A DNA stretch of 64,000 bases from Leucobacter ruminantium (GTDB lineage: Bacteria > Actinomycetota > Actinomycetes > Actinomycetales > Microbacteriaceae). The DNA is taken from NCBI RefSeq assembly GCF_017565705.1, contig NZ_JAGDYL010000009.1, positions 1-64,000 on the forward strand, written 5' to 3'. Made by a program: the position numbers and the translations under genes. Positions 7,181 to 61,681 of this stretch are shown here, one piece after another. How positions within the stretch are numbered: the stretch's first letter is position 1; each line of letters opens with the position of its first letter. Below the pieces are notes generated by a model. It worked only from the letters and a program-made list of their open reading frames with translations. It ran no database searches and was not told where the DNA came from.

Positions 7181-7267
7181 GGTGAGGCGAGGGATCCCCG
7201 CCTGGTCGCACCTTTCCTTCTCCCGTCTTCCTCTCATTCCGGTCGCGCGGCCCGACCTCCCCGCGAC

Positions 7268-7345
7268 CTGACCCCGTGTGCACGAGCTGACCCCGTATTC
7301 ACGTGCATAAAGGTGTCAGCTCGTGCATACGGGGTCAGCTCGCGC
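7268..7345. repeat. Nested palindromic intergenic repeat
   Basis: A perfect 16-bp inverted repeat (CGAGCTGACCCCGTAT at 7283-7298, ATACGGGGTCAGCTCG at 7327-7342) encloses a second dyad (GTGCACGAGCTGAC near 7279-7291 against GTCAGCTCGTGCAT near 7315-7328). CTGACCCCGT is also repeated directly at 7268 and 7287. It sits between dsdA and an aldo/keto reductase. It could act as a dsdA terminator or be a repetitive extragenic palindrome; no T-tract follows. Confidence 0.7.
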
Positions 7346-13423: not shown

Positions 13424-14547
13424 GCGCCGCATCGACGACCGCCGGGGCCGGGCGCCTCGCGAGCCTCGGCCGCCGCCTCGTCAGCCCGCGCGGAGCGGTC
13501 TACCTGCTGCTGGTGGTGCTCCTCGTCGCCGTCGCCGTGCTCAACCCCTCCTTCGCGGAACCGGGTCAGCTCGTCCGCTACATCCAACGGGTCGCGCCGA
13601 TCGCGATCGTCGCGATCGGGCAGTACTTCGTCATCGTGAGCGGCGAGTTCGACCTCTCGCAGGGGTCCCTCGTCACCACTCAGGTCGTGCTCGCCGGCAC
13701 CCTCATCGGGCAGGACGACGCGAAGACCCTGCCGGTGCTGCTGCTCCTCATCGGCATCGGCATCGGCGTCGTCGTCGGCATCGTGAACGGCCTCGTCACG
13801 ACCCTGCTCCGCGTGCCGTCGTTCATCGTGACGCTCGGCATGATGCTCGTGCTCTACGGCGGCGTCATGTGGCTCACGGGAGGCGCCGCCACGGGCAACC
13901 CCGCCGACTCGTTCCGGCAGATCGGCCGCGGGGGCATCACGGGGCTGCCGGTCATCGGCCTGCTGCCGTGGAGCGTGCTCGTGCTCGCCGCGGTCGTCGC
14001 GCTGGCCGTGTGGCTCACCCGCAGGCCCTTCGGCCGCAGCCTCATCGCGATCGGCGACAACCCCGCGGCGGGCGCCTTCGCCGGCGCCTCGGTGTGGAGC
14101 ACCAAGACGACCGCCTTCGTGATCTCCTCGCTCAGCGCGACCACCGCAGGCGTGCTGCTCGTCGGCTACGCGGGCGTGCACCCCTCGGTCGGGAGGGGCT
14201 ACGAGTTCATCGCCATCACGGCGGTCGTGCTCGGCGGAGTGGTGCTCGGTGGCGGCCGCGGCACGGTGTGGGGCGCGCTCGCGGGCGCCTTCGCGCTCGA
14301 GACCCTGTTCACCCTGCTCAACTTCACCTCGATCCCGTCGACGATGCGCGACGCGATCCAGGGCGCCATCATCATCGCCGCGGTCGCCTACTCCGGCGCC
14401 GTCTTCCGCAGCCGCCGGCGCGCCCCCGCAGCGGTCACCGCACCACCCGGATCCCCCGGGTCATCAGCGACGGGGAGCACCCCGTCACCCGATCCCGCCG
14501 GCATCGCCGCCGCGCGGGGCGACGATACGAAGGAGAATCGATCATGA
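13420..14547 (+). CDS. Sugar ABC transporter permease 2 (CUT2)
   Basis: 375 residues, about 9 membrane helices, BPD_transp_2 family. IVSGEFDLSQGSLV and GDNPAAGAFAGASVWSTK correspond to the same motifs as in the first permease, but the proteins are clearly diverged. The C-terminus carries a hydrophilic Pro/Ser-rich tail of about 40 residues that is unusual for the family. It overlaps permease 1 by ATGA and the binding-protein gene by 4 nt at 14544. Confidence 0.92.
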   Translation: MSAASTTAGAGRLASLGRRLVSPRGAVYLLLVVLLVAVAVLNPSFAEPGQLVRYIQRVAPIAIVAIGQYFVIVSGEFDLSQGSLVTTQVVLAGTLIGQDDAKTLPVLLLLIGIGIGVVVGIVNGLVTTLLRVPSFIVTLGMMLVLYGGVMWLTGGAATGNPADSFRQIGRGGITGLPVIGLLPWSVLVLAAVVALAVWLTRRPFGRSLIAIGDNPAAGAFAGASVWSTKTTAFVISSLSATTAGVLLVGYAGVHPSVGRGYEFIAITAVVLGGVVLGGGRGTVWGALAGAFALETLFTLLNFTSIPSTMRDAIQGAIIIAAVAYSGAVFRSRRRAPAAVTAPPGSPGSSATGSTPSPDPAGIAAARGDDTKENRS

Positions 14548-15743
14548 AACGATCGCTGAGAGTCACGGCGGGCCTCGTCGGCGCGGCGTCGCTGATCCTG
14601 CTGGCGGGGTGCACGACCGATCCGTCGGTCGAGGCCCCGAAGGACGGCGCGGAGGAGACCGCGACCGACTGGTTCGATCAGGAGCTCTACGACAAGCAGG
14701 ACGCCGAGCGCTCCGTCGTGCCCGAGGGCCCCGAGGAGCAGCCCTACCTGCAGACCATCAACGCCGAGCTGCGCGACACCGCCGAGTTCGCCTCGTCCGG
14801 CCCGAAGAAGCTCTGCTTCGCCAACGCCTCGATCTCGAACCCCTGGCGCCAGACCGGCTGGATCACCATGAACGAGCAGTTCAAGGTGCTGCAGGAGGCG
14901 GGCGTCTTCTCCGAGATGGAGACCCGCGACGCGAAGGACAGCGACGACACCCAAATCGCCGACATCGACTACTTCATCTCCGAGGGCGACTGCGACGGCT
15001 TCATCATCTCGCCGAACTCGACCGCCGCGCTCACCCCGGCCGTCGAGCGCGCCTGCGAGACCGGGAAGCCCGTCGTCGTCTTCGACCGCGGCGTGCAGAC
15101 CGACTGCGCCGTCACCTTCATCCACCCCATCGGCGGCTTCGCCTGGGGCATCGACACCGCAGAGTTCCTCAGCGACAACCTGAAGGAAGGCGACAAGGTC
15201 GTCGCGCTGCGCATCCTGCCCGGCGTCGACGTGCTCGAGCAGCGCTGGGCCGCCGCCGAGAAGATCTTCGAGGAGAACGGCATCGAGGCGGTCGACTACT
15301 TCACCGGCGCCGACCCCGCCGAGATCAAGAAGATCATCTCCGACGAGCTCGCGAAGGGCGATGTGCAGGGCGTCTGGATGGACGCCGGCGACGGTGCCGT
15401 CGCAGCGATCGAGGCCTTCGAGGACGCTGACAAGGACTACCCGGTCATGACCGGTGAGGACGAGATGAGCTTCCTGCGCAAGTGGAAGGACACGGGCCTC
15501 ACCGGCCTCGCCCCCGTCTACTCGAACTTCCAGTGGCGCACGCCGCTGCTCGCGATGCAGAAGATCTTCGCCGGCGAGCAGGTGCCGCAGGAGTGGGTGC
15601 TCCCGCAGAGCCCCATCACCGCCGAGGAGCTCGACGGCTACCTCGAGGCGAACGAGGGCATGCCCGACGGCCACTACGCCAAGTTCGGCGGCGAGGACCT
15701 TCCGGGCTACCCGAAGCTCTGGCAGGATCGGGTCATCCCGTAG
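14544..15743 (+). CDS. Sugar ABC transporter substrate-binding lipoprotein
   Basis: 399 residues. Lipoprotein signal peptide: MKRSLR, hydrophobic core, lipobox LLAGC with Cys23. The mature part is a type I periplasmic-binding fold (FANASISNPWRQ, DGFIISPNSTAAL, VVVFDRGVQTDC) and should sit on the outer face of the membrane. It is preceded by AAGGAGA. Mature-chain Cys residues (CFANA, GDCDG, ACETG, TDCAV) may form disulfides. Last gene of the operon before a strong hairpin. Confidence 0.92.
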   Translation: MKRSLRVTAGLVGAASLILLAGCTTDPSVEAPKDGAEETATDWFDQELYDKQDAERSVVPEGPEEQPYLQTINAELRDTAEFASSGPKKLCFANASISNPWRQTGWITMNEQFKVLQEAGVFSEMETRDAKDSDDTQIADIDYFISEGDCDGFIISPNSTAALTPAVERACETGKPVVVFDRGVQTDCAVTFIHPIGGFAWGIDTAEFLSDNLKEGDKVVALRILPGVDVLEQRWAAAEKIFEENGIEAVDYFTGADPAEIKKIISDELAKGDVQGVWMDAGDGAVAAIEAFEDADKDYPVMTGEDEMSFLRKWKDTGLTGLAPVYSNFQWRTPLLAMQKIFAGEQVPQEWVLPQSPITAEELDGYLEANEGMPDGHYAKFGGEDLPGYPKLWQDRVIP

Positions 15744-15784
15744 TAGGTCTGCCCGGTGGGGCGGAGGCCGCGGAGACTTGGGCA

Positions 15785-15819
15785 GGGAACCCCGGCGCGT
15801 CGCAAGCGCCGGGGTTCCC
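15785..15819 (+). terminator. Strong hairpin after the first ABC operon
   Basis: GGGAACCCCGGCGC (15785-15798) pairs perfectly over 14 bp with GCGCCGGGGTTCCC (15806-15819), loop of 7 nt. There is no U-tract, so it may be a non-canonical actinobacterial terminator or part of the larger folded element that begins at 15818. Confidence 0.65.
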
Positions 15820-15978
15820 GCGGGAACGAATCTCTCGGAGACTAGGGCAAGGGATCCCCGCGTGTTTGTTCACGCGGCCGTGTGCCGCGGTTCACGTCGC
15901 TACGAAACGCTGGCGCGTTTCGTTTCACGCGACGTGCACGCGAACCTTGATGCGTCTCCGAGAGCTTCGCTCCCGCGG
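15818..15978. repeat. 161-bp folded element bounded by 25-bp inverted repeats
   Basis: The ends 15818-15842 and 15954-15978 are inverted copies matching at 23 of 25 positions. Inside lie further hairpins: CCGCGTG-N6-CACGCGG near 15857-15876, and a stem in which CGTCGC, CGAAACG pair with CGTTTCG, GCGACG (about 15896-15943). I see no reading frame with coding character. It ends about 40 bp before the isomerase ATG. It may be a miniature mobile palindrome, a structured RNA or an operon-spacer terminator. Confidence 0.6.
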
Positions 15979-16016
15979 GCACGACGAATGAGCGATGAAC
16001 CCGGTGAGGGGGCAGC

Positions 16017-16883
16017 ATGCAGCGAGAGCTCGGAGTGAACACGTGGGTGTGGGCGTCGCCGCTCGACGACGCGGGCCTGCTCGCGATCGCGGAGCGGGCG
16101 CGGCGCATCGGATACTCGCTGCTCGAGCTGCCCGTCGAGACGCCGGGCGACTGGACGCCCGCGCTCGCCGCCGAGCGGCTCGCCGAACTCGGCATGGGCG
16201 CCCGGGTGGTCGGTGCGATGGGGGAGGGGCGCGACCTCCTCGATCCCTCGACCCGCGCCGGCACGCAGGCCTACCTGCGGCACTGCGTCGACGTTGCAGT
16301 GGCGGTCGGATCGCCCACCGTCGCAGGTCCGTTCACGGCCCGCACCGGGCGGGTGTGGCGCATGACGGCCGCGGAGCGCGCGGACGCCGTGCGGGCACTG
16401 CGCGGATCCCTCGCCCCTCTCTCGGACTATGCCGCCGAGCGCGGCGTGACGCTCGCCATCGAGCCCCTCAACCGCTACGAGACGAGCCTCATCAACACCG
16501 TGGAGCAGGCACTCGACGCCCTCGACCCCCTGCTGGGCCCGGGCCTCGGCCTCGCGCTCGACAGCTACCATCTCAACATCGAGGAGCGCTGCCCCGCCGC
16601 AGCCATCCGAGCCGCGGGCTCCCGCATCGCCGTGATGCAGGTGTGCGGCAACGACCGCGGCCCCGCAGGGCCCGACCACACCGACTGGCCCGGCATCCTC
16701 GACGCGCTCGACGACGCGGGCTACGCCGGCCCGCTCACCCTCGAGAGCTTCACCGGGGACAACGACACGATCGCGACCGCCGCATCGATCTGGCGGCCCC
16801 TGTCCGAGAGTCAGGACGAGCTGGCCCGCATCACCCACGACTTCCTCACCGATCTGCAGCAGCGAAGGAGCCGCCGACCATGA
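16017..16883 (+). CDS. Sugar epimerase/isomerase of the tagatose-3-epimerase type (metal ligand altered)
   Basis: 288 residues, xylose-isomerase-like TIM barrel (AP_endonuc_2). Alignment by eye to D-tagatose/psicose 3-epimerases gives metal ligands Glu149 (AIEPLNRYETS), Asp182 (LDSYHLN) and Glu243 (TLESF). The usual His of the HxGExNR motif appears to be Gln208 (QVCGNDR), with the Arg kept. GAGGGGG precedes the ATG. It is coupled to the next isomerase by ATGA. It probably acts on the product of the upstream dehydrogenase; substrate unknown. Confidence 0.85.
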   Translation: MQRELGVNTWVWASPLDDAGLLAIAERARRIGYSLLELPVETPGDWTPALAAERLAELGMGARVVGAMGEGRDLLDPSTRAGTQAYLRHCVDVAVAVGSPTVAGPFTARTGRVWRMTAAERADAVRALRGSLAPLSDYAAERGVTLAIEPLNRYETSLINTVEQALDALDPLLGPGLGLALDSYHLNIEERCPAAAIRAAGSRIAVMQVCGNDRGPAGPDHTDWPGILDALDDAGYAGPLTLESFTGDNDTIATAASIWRPLSESQDELARITHDFLTDLQQRRSRRP

Positions 16884-19514: not shown

Positions 19515-20339
19515 ATGACGACGAGTCTCATCCCGATCAATGGGATCAAGATGTACGTGGCCGACACGGGCGAGCAGGACCTGCCGGTCGTGCTCTGCCT
19601 CCACTCGCTCTTCCTCGACTCCCGGATGTTCGACGGCTTCGTCGAGGTGGCGAAAGGGAGGTACCGGGTCGTGCGGCCCGAGTTCCGCGGGCAGGGGCGC
19701 ACCGACCGCGACACGGTCGAGGCGATCACGATGGATCAGGACGCCGACGACATGTTCGCGCTCATCGAGCACCTGGGGCTCCGGGACATCAACATGATCG
19801 CCCAGTCCATGGGCGGCGACGTCGCGGTGCGGCTCGCCGCGCGCAGGCCCGAACTCTTCCGCTCGCTCGTGATGGCGGGCTCCTCCGCGTGCAACGAGCC
19901 CGACGAGCAGCGCGAGGAGTTTCTCGGGTGGATCGGCCGTGCCGGTGAGCAGGGCTTCATCAACGACAGCCTCGAAGAGACCATGGCGATCATGTTCGGT
20001 CCCACCAGCCGCAACACGACCGACCCGAAGCGCAAGGCGGCCGTCGCGCTCTGGGAGGACCGGATCGGCGCGGTGCACCGCAACCTCTACCCGGCGATGC
20101 GGGGCGTGATTCTGCGCGAGAACGCCGTGCCCCTGCTGCCGCGGATCACCTGTCCGTCGCTCGTCCTCTCGGGCACGGAGGACACGGCGCGCCCGCCGGC
20201 GTGGGCCAAGCAGGTGGCCGACGGGATCCCCGATTCCGAGCTGATCGTGATGGAGGGCGTGGGTCACAGCCCGACGCTCGAGGTGCCGGACGAGGTGTAC
20301 CCGGTGATCCTCGACTTCTTCGATCGCCACAATCCCTGA
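19515..20339 (+). CDS. Alpha/beta hydrolase (C-C or ester hydrolase type)
   Basis: 274 residues, single alpha/beta-hydrolase domain. Nucleophile Ser98 in AQSMGGD, oxyanion region LHSLFLD, acid Asp in SGTEDTARP, His in VGHSPTLEVP. GGAAGGAG precedes the ATG. It follows the SCP2-hydrolase fusion in one operon and ends at a bidirectional terminator. Family members include BphD/MhpC-type C-C hydrolases and 3-oxoadipate enol-lactonases; the sequence alone does not separate these. Confidence 0.88.
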   Translation: MTTSLIPINGIKMYVADTGEQDLPVVLCLHSLFLDSRMFDGFVEVAKGRYRVVRPEFRGQGRTDRDTVEAITMDQDADDMFALIEHLGLRDINMIAQSMGGDVAVRLAARRPELFRSLVMAGSSACNEPDEQREEFLGWIGRAGEQGFINDSLEETMAIMFGPTSRNTTDPKRKAAVALWEDRIGAVHRNLYPAMRGVILRENAVPLLPRITCPSLVLSGTEDTARPPAWAKQVADGIPDSELIVMEGVGHSPTLEVPDEVYPVILDFFDRHNP

Positions 20340-20349
20340 CGGGGAACGG

Positions 20350-20383
20350 GAGAGGCCCCCGCGGGAATCCGCGGGGGCCTCTC
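20350..20383. terminator. Bidirectional terminator between convergent operons
   Basis: GAGAGGCCCCCGCGG (20350-20364) pairs perfectly over 15 bp with CCGCGGGGGCCTCTC (20369-20383), loop GAAT. It lies between the convergent hydrolase (ends 20339) and E2 (ends 20397) genes. Confidence 0.85.
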
Positions 20384-20396
20384 CTCGTCCTCGTCG

Positions 20397-31901: not shown

Positions 31902-33149
31902 GTGAGCGAGAAGCAGCGGCCGCCCGAGAACGGCTTCGACATCGCGGTCGTCGGAGCGGGGATCGTCGGACTCGCCGTCGCCGGGGAGATCCTGAGGCGC
32001 CGGCCCGGCGCCAGAATCGTTCTGCTCGAGAGGGAACCGGAGGTGGCGGCGCATCAGACCGGTCACAACTCCGGCGTCATCCACAGCGGCATCTACTACA
32101 CGCCGGGTTCGCTGAAAGCGCGGCTGTGCGTGGAGGGGGCCGCACTGATGTACGAGTACTGCGAGCAGCGGGGGATCCCGCACGAGCGTGCGGGGAAGCT
32201 CATCGTCGCGCGCACGAAGCGCGAGGTCGAAGGGCTCCGGGTGCTGCATGAGCGGGGCATCGCGAACGGCGTGCCGGGTCTGAGATGGTTGGAGTCGCAC
32301 GAGATCCCCGAGGTCGAACCCATGTGCGTGGGCCTCGCCGCCCTGCACTCCCCGAACACCGGCATCGTCGACTACGCGGAGGTGTGCCGCAGGCTCGAAC
32401 GCGAACTGCGGGAATCCGGCGCGACGGTGCTGCTCGGCACGCGGGTGGAGCGCATCGACCGCTCCGGCGATCGCTCGATCGTCCGCACCGATCGCGGCGA
32501 GGTGAACGCGGGATGGGTCGTCACCTGCGCGGGACTGTGGTCCGACGAACTGTCGAGGCGTTCCGGTGCCGAAGACAACCCGCGCATCGTGCCGTTCAGG
32601 GGGGCCTATCTGCACCTTGCACCCTCCGACGCCGAGCCGGTCGTGCGCGGCATGGTCTACCCCGTTCCCGACCCCGACCTGCCCTTCCTCGGGGTGCACA
32701 TCACCCGCCACATCGGCGGCGAGATCTCGATCGGCCCGACCGCGTTCGTCGCGGGAGCGAAGGACGCGTACCGGATCACCCGCATCAGCGCGCGCGACCT
32801 GTGGTCCCTCGCCTCCTGGCCCGGCACGTGGCGCGTGGCGAGGAAGTTCTGGCGCACCGCCTTCACCGAGATCCGCTTCCTGCTGAGTCGTCGCGCGATG
32901 CGCAGCGCCGCCGCGGAGTTCGTCCCCGAGATCCGGCGCCGCGCCCTCGCCGCGCACGGAGCAGCGGGCGTCCGCGCGCAGGCGGTGGATCGCGACGGAA
33001 CGCTCGTCGACGACTTCGTCATCTCCGAGGTGCCCGGCGCGACGCACGTGCGCAACGCCCCGTCACCCGCCGCGACGAGCGCCTTCGCACTGGCGCGCGA
33101 ACTCGTCGACCGCTTCGAGAGGAACCTGGGCGCCGCCGGTCGGCCCTAG
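31902..33149 (+). CDS. FAD-dependent oxidoreductase, L-2-hydroxyglutarate-oxidase-like
   Basis: 415 residues, DAO fold. N-terminal FAD motif VVGAGIVGLAVAGEIL, then GHNSGVIHSGIYY, which is diagnostic of the LhgO group, and PFRGAYLHL. C-terminal ISEVPGATHVRNAPSPAATSAF also matches. It should oxidise a 2-hydroxyacid to the 2-oxoacid, feeding electrons to oxygen or quinone. GTG start chosen after GAGAGGGGA; another GTG at 31839 overlaps the upstream stop. The actual hydroxyacid may differ from hydroxyglutarate. Confidence 0.87.
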   Translation: MSEKQRPPENGFDIAVVGAGIVGLAVAGEILRRRPGARIVLLEREPEVAAHQTGHNSGVIHSGIYYTPGSLKARLCVEGAALMYEYCEQRGIPHERAGKLIVARTKREVEGLRVLHERGIANGVPGLRWLESHEIPEVEPMCVGLAALHSPNTGIVDYAEVCRRLERELRESGATVLLGTRVERIDRSGDRSIVRTDRGEVNAGWVVTCAGLWSDELSRRSGAEDNPRIVPFRGAYLHLAPSDAEPVVRGMVYPVPDPDLPFLGVHITRHIGGEISIGPTAFVAGAKDAYRITRISARDLWSLASWPGTWRVARKFWRTAFTEIRFLLSRRAMRSAAAEFVPEIRRRALAAHGAAGVRAQAVDRDGTLVDDFVISEVPGATHVRNAPSPAATSAFALARELVDRFERNLGAAGRP

Positions 33150-61540: not shown

Positions 61541-61560
61541 TCGCGTCCCCGCCACTTCCG

Positions 61561-61636
61561 CCGGTTGAGCGAGCGCCAGCGAGTCGAAACCGAGGAACCG
61601 CTCCCGGGTTTCGACTCGCTCCGCTCGCTCAACCGG
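61561..61636. terminator. Long imperfect palindrome after the third ABC operon
   Basis: A 31-nt arm (61561-61591) beginning CCGGTTGAGCGAGCG pairs with a 30-nt arm (61607-61636) beginning GGTTTCGACTCGCT, with one small bulge and a 15-nt loop. GGTTTCGACTCGCT/GCTCAACC palindromes are a recurrent intergenic feature of Microbacteriaceae (recollection). It probably terminates or stabilises the transporter mRNA. Confidence 0.75.
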
Positions 61637-61681
61637 CGAAGGGAGCCCCACCTCCCCACGACACACGTAAAGGAAGCAACA

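Follow-up and report, generated by a model that had tools for sequence, protein, structure and literature searches.

A composite hairpin past a binding-protein gene of Leucobacter ruminantium: a probable transcript-end element enlarged by a dispersed palindrome

Intrinsic (Rho-independent) terminators carry a GC-rich hairpin past the stop codon. Bacterial genomes also harbour REP and BIME sequences, which are dispersed extragenic palindromes that lie between or after the genes of operons and occur with RAYT transposases. In Streptococcus pneumoniae, SPRITE, BOX and RUP are interspersed structured repeats that insert into one another, and SPRITE, which is like a long Rho-independent terminator, is enriched near the 3′ ends of genes; the part of this account drawn on here also mentions BIMEs (PMC3049150). 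Template switching is the kind of event that makes fold-back copies, and the portion of PMC8794818 used here reconstructs ancestral histories of RNA genes. In the literature on repeats, terminators and noncoding RNA of Leucobacter, Microbacteriaceae and Actinobacteria, judged by titles, no title suggested the elements described below.

The locus considered here lies in a window of 64,000 nt from L. ruminantium (contig NZ_JAGDYL010000009.1, positions 1 to 64,000 of the forward strand). The original prediction, made from the letters of this window, singled out a folded element of 161 bp at positions 15818-15978. The element is intergenic and non-coding, as had been proposed, lying between the stop codon of a binding-protein gene (15743) and the ATG of an isomerase-like gene (16017, start as taken), with both flanking genes on the plus strand. 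The claimed agreement of its terminal arms was borne out, 15818-15842 pairing with 15954-15978 at 23 of 25 positions, and the best pair of arms in an inverted-repeat scan of the window is slightly longer (Table 1). When folded against shuffled controls, the element gives -94.4 kcal/mol (z -7.17) on the plus strand and -101.6 kcal/mol (z -9.83) on the minus strand, with 0 of 200 shuffles as good in either case. The adjoining hairpin at 15785-15819 was likewise confirmed as a perfect hairpin of 14 bp (z -5.88).

The prediction overstated its case in setting this symmetry apart from everything else in the window. The scan gave 87 inverted repeats, and the 25 longest include comparably strong ones at 7262-7344 (33-nt arms, 91%, 17 nt spacer, plus a second overlapping pairing), at 20338-20395 (27-nt arms, 85%, 4-nt loop, resembling an ordinary long terminator hairpin) and at 61559-61638. 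The last of these is also nested, with arms of 17 nt (100%) and 19 nt (89%), and is of the type TTGAGCGAGCG...GAGTCGAAACC; sequence like it occupies the 3′ site of the binding-protein gene in relatives G046 and G008.

The check for multicopy occurrence that was proposed at the outset found the whole 161 bp in single copy in its own genome, the remaining matches being its own arms, and at a blastn cutoff of E <= 0.01 neither the plasmid nor the phage collection contains a match. These two results rule out the whole element as a multicopy mobile unit. The same locus is present in another genome of the genus, G030, where the flanks are 87% and 84% identical. There the same hairpin carries 12 nt in place of the inner 72 nt, and the 14-bp hairpin is missing. 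The part common to the two elements recurs with unrelated outer stems, for example 3′ of a class II tRNA synthetase gene (L006) and 3′ of a thioredoxin gene (L033). We term this recurring element family 1, and the dispersed repeat to which the inner 72 nt belong family 2.

Table 1. Features of the binding-protein/isomerase intergenic region and its flanking genes in the window.
Feature	Position	Strand	Basis
Sugar-type periplasmic binding protein gene (upstream)	14544..15743	+	Pfam PF13407 Peripla_BP_4, E 3.6e-28; ORF
Degenerate second family-1 core, in tandem ahead of the main element	15773..15834	+	R1 19.4 bits, E 0.048
Perfect 14-bp hairpin; core sequence on the 5′ side and in the loop, exact fold-back copy on the 3′ side	15785..15819	+	z -5.88; comparison with L006
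Outer stem, 5′ arm (variable part of family 1)	15814..15842	+	29 nt, 90% complementary to 15954-15982
Family-1 core, including the insert	15838..15958	+	R1 53.7 bits, E 2.8e-11; R2 36 bits, E 2.2e-4
Conserved core, 5′ half TAGGGC AAGG GATCCCC GCGTG	15843..15864	+	Read against core alignments
Inserted family-2 hairpin repeat, two hairpins	15865..15936	-	72 nt versus 12 in G030; dispersed matches in the genus; borders drawn by eye, a global alignment with G030 gapping slightly otherwise
Family-2 small hairpin GCGGC ACACG GCCGC	15874..15888	-	Fold; similar ones in L007, L008, L009
Main hairpin of family 2, with stem CACGTCGC/GCGACGTG, an asymmetric loop and an apical AAACGC-GCCA-GCGTTT	15893..15936	-	Fold; 16-mer 15905-15920
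Conserved core, 3′ half CACGCG AA CCTT GATGC	15937..15953	+	Core alignment
Outer stem, 3′ arm, then CACGACGA, no T-rich tail	15954..15982	+	Inverted-repeat scan; T-tail count
Xylose-isomerase-like TIM barrel gene (downstream)	16017..16883	+	Pfam PF01261, E 1.9e-28

The consensus of the family-1 core is approximately GC-UUARRC-AGGG-GACCCC-[GGCGYG..CRCGCC]-AA-CCCU-GAUGC-GC. It comprises a P2 stem (AGGG/CCCU), an internal loop (GACCCC/AA), a P3 stem (GGCGYG/CRCGCC), a U.C mismatch and a small CGC/GCG cap, and a subgroup (such as L116, L119, L122 and L125) has CGGGG/CCCCG with ACCCCU in the loop. Across 30 cores, 86.2% of cells are paired as against 76.9% in shuffles, and 73 cells have changed on both sides as against 27.6 in shuffles (0 of 500 as high; slid controls <= 26), the shuffles taking no account of relatedness and the structure having been drawn from the same alignment. 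Changes on both sides are seen at 12 of the 20 core pairs, and two core pairs are split, one between A-U (14) and G-C (13) and the other between U-A (16) and C-G (11). One of the five measures, the number of further pair types, has no excess in these cores (21 versus 22.5 in shuffles).

In 25 sense elements the outer stem is 13-33 pairs long (median 21), and its sequence differs between loci with the pairing kept. In seven orthologous comparisons of arms at five loci, three of which share the thioredoxin element of G017, 30 pairs have changed on both sides and still pair. The same comparisons contain 2 one-sided changes that still pair, 6 one-sided changes that gain or lose pairing, and 2 pairs that changed on both sides without being paired in both. 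A comparison of the window copy with its counterpart in G030 over 24 arm pairs gives 3 double changes that are concordant, 2 changes on one side by which a pair is gained or lost, and 1 change on both sides that is not paired in both copies. Family 1 does not have the constant terminal inverted repeats that are a trait of MITEs; its outer arms vary between loci. The original prediction had counted single-copy status and a lack of compensatory changes against itself. The first was found, but the outer element has both compensatory changes and relatives elsewhere.

For the covariance-model search that had been suggested, models were built from three cores (R1) and from 30 cores (R2). At E <= 0.01 the search gave 38 matches in 18 of the 54 genomes of the genus, two of them in the window's genome, and these 38 still include L151, which shows no hairpin on visual inspection, L160/L161, which are doubtful, and another match on contig 138 of G039. 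By R2, 34 matches fall in 15 of 41 genomes and four in 3 of the remaining 13. These copy numbers are minimum values, because the first pass scored part of the candidates and the filters of the 41-genome search were stricter than those of the 13-genome search. There is no match at this threshold in 36 of the 54 genomes, some of them incomplete. Model matches that have no hairpin by eye were dropped before counting (L103, L105, L108, L127 and window 32973-33036), and L110, matches of 16.0-19.2 bits in L116, L131 and L132, and weak R1 matches in G007, G036 and G044 stand outside the counts. The match in L130 is decayed in appearance. The window copy belongs to the core family by both models (38 sources for R1; Table 1), and it is not in A2 or A4, of which its G030 ortholog is a member. 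The second copy in its genome is located 3′ of a carbamoyltransferase gene (G000:C30:15534-15605).

Searching 299 relatives with R1 at E <= 0.1 matched 46 genomes, 23 of them in the genus, and every match with E < 1e-5 lies in the genus. Matches in the 23 genomes outside it are weak (best E 5.6e-4), and in the six looked at (L100-L104 and L106) the hairpin is missing by eye. With R2, 299 genomes of the family, some of them in the genus, yielded two outside-genus matches at E <= 0.001. One of these, L169, does not look real. The other, L168 1501-1544, looks like a real family-1 core without P3, located 28 nt past a co-directional ORF in another genus of the family, and suggests that family 1 reaches beyond Leucobacter. 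A genome-wide scan with a narrow pattern matched three contigs, all from Leucobacter. Rfam returned five sub-threshold matches for window 15600-16100, the highest at 22.1 bits against a threshold of 168 and the one with the lowest E (0.0011), sR035, at 21.4 bits against 233, and nothing near threshold for the cores of L034, L006 and L033. Family 1 is a family of structured elements that is unrecognised by the Rfam 15 models in the stretches searched.

With loci grouped by hand, 18 of 21 family-1 loci have the element in the sense orientation, 3′ of a co-directional gene or of RNase P RNA (two-sided p 0.0015). The three reversed loci are upstream of rpsJ (five genomes), purS and dapA, and inclusion of a weaker fourth, L160/L161, gives p = 0.004. 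Lysyl-tRNA synthetase, M23 peptidase, ParB, PurS, ManC and RpsJ are names read from translations and not from a resolving family search. One family-1 element resides 3′ of the RNase P RNA gene (L114 2501-2561), which indicates an association with transcript ends and not with coding genes alone. For 10 elements at 9 loci, 29-59 nt separate the stop codon from the core. The spacing is 112 nt for the thioredoxin element of G034 and 95 nt for the window copy, in front of which the 14-bp hairpin lies. Between the reversed element and rpsJ, a stretch of ~350 nt is alike by eye in five genomes (L133 2561-2907, L097, L098, L116 and L126), and Rfam gave nothing at threshold on L133; this stretch may be the promoter plus leader of the S10 operon.

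Among 25 sense elements, counted without L129 (which has its own insert) and L162 (found afterwards), the mean number of T residues in eight positions is 2.92 on the 3′ side and 0.76 on the antisense side. The 3′-side count is higher in 20, lower in 1 and equal in 4, and 15 of the 25 have at least 3 T in the next 8 nt. An earlier count with overextended stems gave a weaker difference (1.81/12 versus 0.96). The window copy has 0 T in 8 nt, as against 1, 2 and 3 of 8 in its three counterparts at the same locus. Seven reversed elements that were read have the T excess too (higher in 5, equal in 2), so that it is a property of the element and alone no proof of use at gene ends. The outer hairpin of the window element was not called in a terminator scan, whose loop limit of 8 would exclude such a hairpin.

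The insert at 15865-15936 is a two-hairpin repeat of another, dispersed family that lies inside the family-1 loop in the opposite orientation. Family-2 elements are built from a variable stem, an asymmetric 5′ loop and an apical AAACGC-GCCA-GCGTTT, often with a small hairpin next to them. The 16-mer at window 15905-15920 has 33 matches in 14 of the 54 genus genomes, including 3 in the window's genome, and its reversed control has none in the 54. At the same locus the insert is missing from G030, G032 and G041, all three of which carry the core. An insert that folds alike is found in the thioredoxin element of G008, where it sits elsewhere in the core and is turned the other way. This insert lacks the exact 16-mer, and its relationship to family 2 is judged from shape. 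The Y1 (RAYT) transposase domain, Pfam PF01797, was found in 0 of the 54 genus genomes and in 5 of 14 control genomes, which makes mobilisation by RAYT/REP unlikely. The earlier option of a non-autonomous mobile palindrome fits the inner 72 nt, a dispersed repeat missing in three relatives, but not for the outer element with its varying arms.

Positions 15777-15811, which overlap the 14-bp hairpin, equal the core of L006 at 33 of 35 positions. Past 15811 the core simply continues in L006, and in the window the 5′ side is repeated as its exact reverse complement. The simplest history would be that a second core stood here in tandem and that fold-back copying replaced its 3′ half.

Long hairpins without a core are also found at the sites that family 1 occupies. 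In the 180 nt past the stop, with 184 coding, not intergenic, windows as controls, the ungapped stem score exceeds the coding maximum (11) at 11 of 16 orthologous binding-protein loci and at 26 of 30 thioredoxin loci (30 of 53 were read). Scores of at least 14 occur at 8 and 18 of these loci, respectively, and in 0 of the 184 coding windows. The core is present at 4 of the 16 binding-protein loci, and among stems scoring at least 14 it is borne by 4 of 8 at this locus and by 1 of 18 at the thioredoxin locus. Most long hairpins at the two 3′ sites lack the core. A long hairpin of some sort commonly occupies these sites, and a core-bearing element is one such occupant. A third dispersed hairpin repeat, GTCATCCTGCGCGAGG...CAGGATGAC, is located at the binding-protein 3′ site in L206 1942-2200, L205 and L211, and is in tandem in G047. 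No empty family-1 site, meaning the same outer hairpin without the core in a near relative, was found.

On balance, we consider the element to be probably a composite transcript-end hairpin of the terminator type that serves the ABC-transporter/binding-protein operon and has been enlarged by a small dispersed palindrome. Its outer part would be a family-1 hairpin, with a long near-perfect stem, free in sequence as long as it stays paired, around a conserved core. Once RNA polymerase leaves the binding-protein gene, this hairpin would fold, end or pause transcription and block 3′ exonucleases, and would thereby keep the mRNA of the binding protein apart from the isomerase genes. In the window's genome, the apical loop would have received an unrelated dispersed hairpin repeat, oriented the opposite way, and a second core lying upstream would have collapsed into the perfect 14-bp hairpin by fold-back copying. 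We infer termination from anatomy, namely position, orientation and T tails, and likewise infer mRNA protection, the binding of something by the core, stem renewal by template switching and the spread of either family. Of the options first named, a composite terminator is the best supported, by the 18 of 21 loci that are 3′ of co-directional genes and by the T tail of the family. The window copy agrees with it in having a stable GC-rich hairpin past a gene end, but not in its tail. Lacking a T tail, this copy may be a hairpin that pauses transcription, partly terminates it or shields the binding-protein mRNA. Plain termination leaves a conserved core unexplained.

Both layers could be selfish, non-autonomous mobile palindromes that settled at gene ends, where insertion is tolerated, and have no host function. 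This would fit the several copies at unrelated loci in a genome, the patchy presence of the core at orthologous binding-protein loci, the dispersal of the family-2 16-mer and the two sites at which a hairpin lies within the core; pneumococcal BOX, RUP and SPRITE are largely read so in the part of PMC3049150 used here. We nevertheless find it somewhat unlikely, because blind insertion would not be expected to give the sense orientation at 18 of 21 loci, the arms of family 1 vary where constant inverted ends would be expected, and the lack of PF01797 throughout the genus makes the REP/RAYT route improbable. The core itself, whose letters and asymmetric loops are kept while the surrounding stems are replaced and which covaries internally, might be a protein or small-molecule site that sets termination or mRNA life for unrelated genes. 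Such a regulatory 3′-UTR RNA is decidedly unlikely given that the upstream genes have no evident pathway in common and that two-thirds of the genus genomes, some of them incomplete, have no match at E <= 0.01. An arrangement that we judge unlikely would combine these features in a clade-specific 3′-end RNA device, with a receptor-like core, a site for a protein or ligand, in intrinsic terminators, an outer stem repeatedly rewritten by template switching, by which one core would come to be carried on a different terminator at every gene, and a second hairpin family entering the loops of the first.

That the element is a leader RNA or attenuator of the isomerase mRNA, as the original prediction also allowed, is most improbable. 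The isomerase-like gene does start 34 nt after the hairpin in the window's genome, and this short gap leaves some room for readthrough or a leader role at the window locus. However, the constant neighbour in family 1 is the upstream gene, the downstream gene points either way and is convergent in several cases, and no riboswitch family reached threshold. The genes that precede the relatives are mutually unrelated, which rules out a link with the isomerase pathway.

A near-perfect stem that changes freely around a fixed asymmetric core would make family 1 a test bed for how long stems keep their pairing, whether by selection or by template switching, and for the requirements of intrinsic termination in high-GC Gram-positive bacteria. 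Should something bind to the core, the family would represent a 3′-UTR regulator common to unrelated genes. Like intrinsic terminators, family 1 places a GC-rich hairpin past the stop, with at least 3 T in the next 8 nt of 15 of 25 sense elements; unlike them, its outer stems of 13-33 pairs surround a conserved core, and the tail of the window copy is without T. It shares with REP and BIME the character of dispersed extragenic palindromes between or after operon genes, but its stems are not conserved between loci and the Y1 transposase of the REP/RAYT system is found in 0 of 54 genus genomes. As in the template-switch hairpins of PMC8794818, so far as the portion used here describes them, concordant changes are clustered in both arms and 15785-15819 is an exact fold-back; family-1 stems differ in lying at gene ends and in having been compared without ancestral reconstruction. 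The nearest elements in print are the pneumococcal SPRITE, BOX and RUP, which, in the part of PMC3049150 drawn on, share terminator-like repeats near gene ends and mutual insertion with the elements described here. Compared by description with that same part, family 1 belongs to another phylum, its stem differs by locus, and only its central asymmetric-loop core is conserved. Locus-variable stems around a fixed core set family 1 apart from the pneumococcal repeats.
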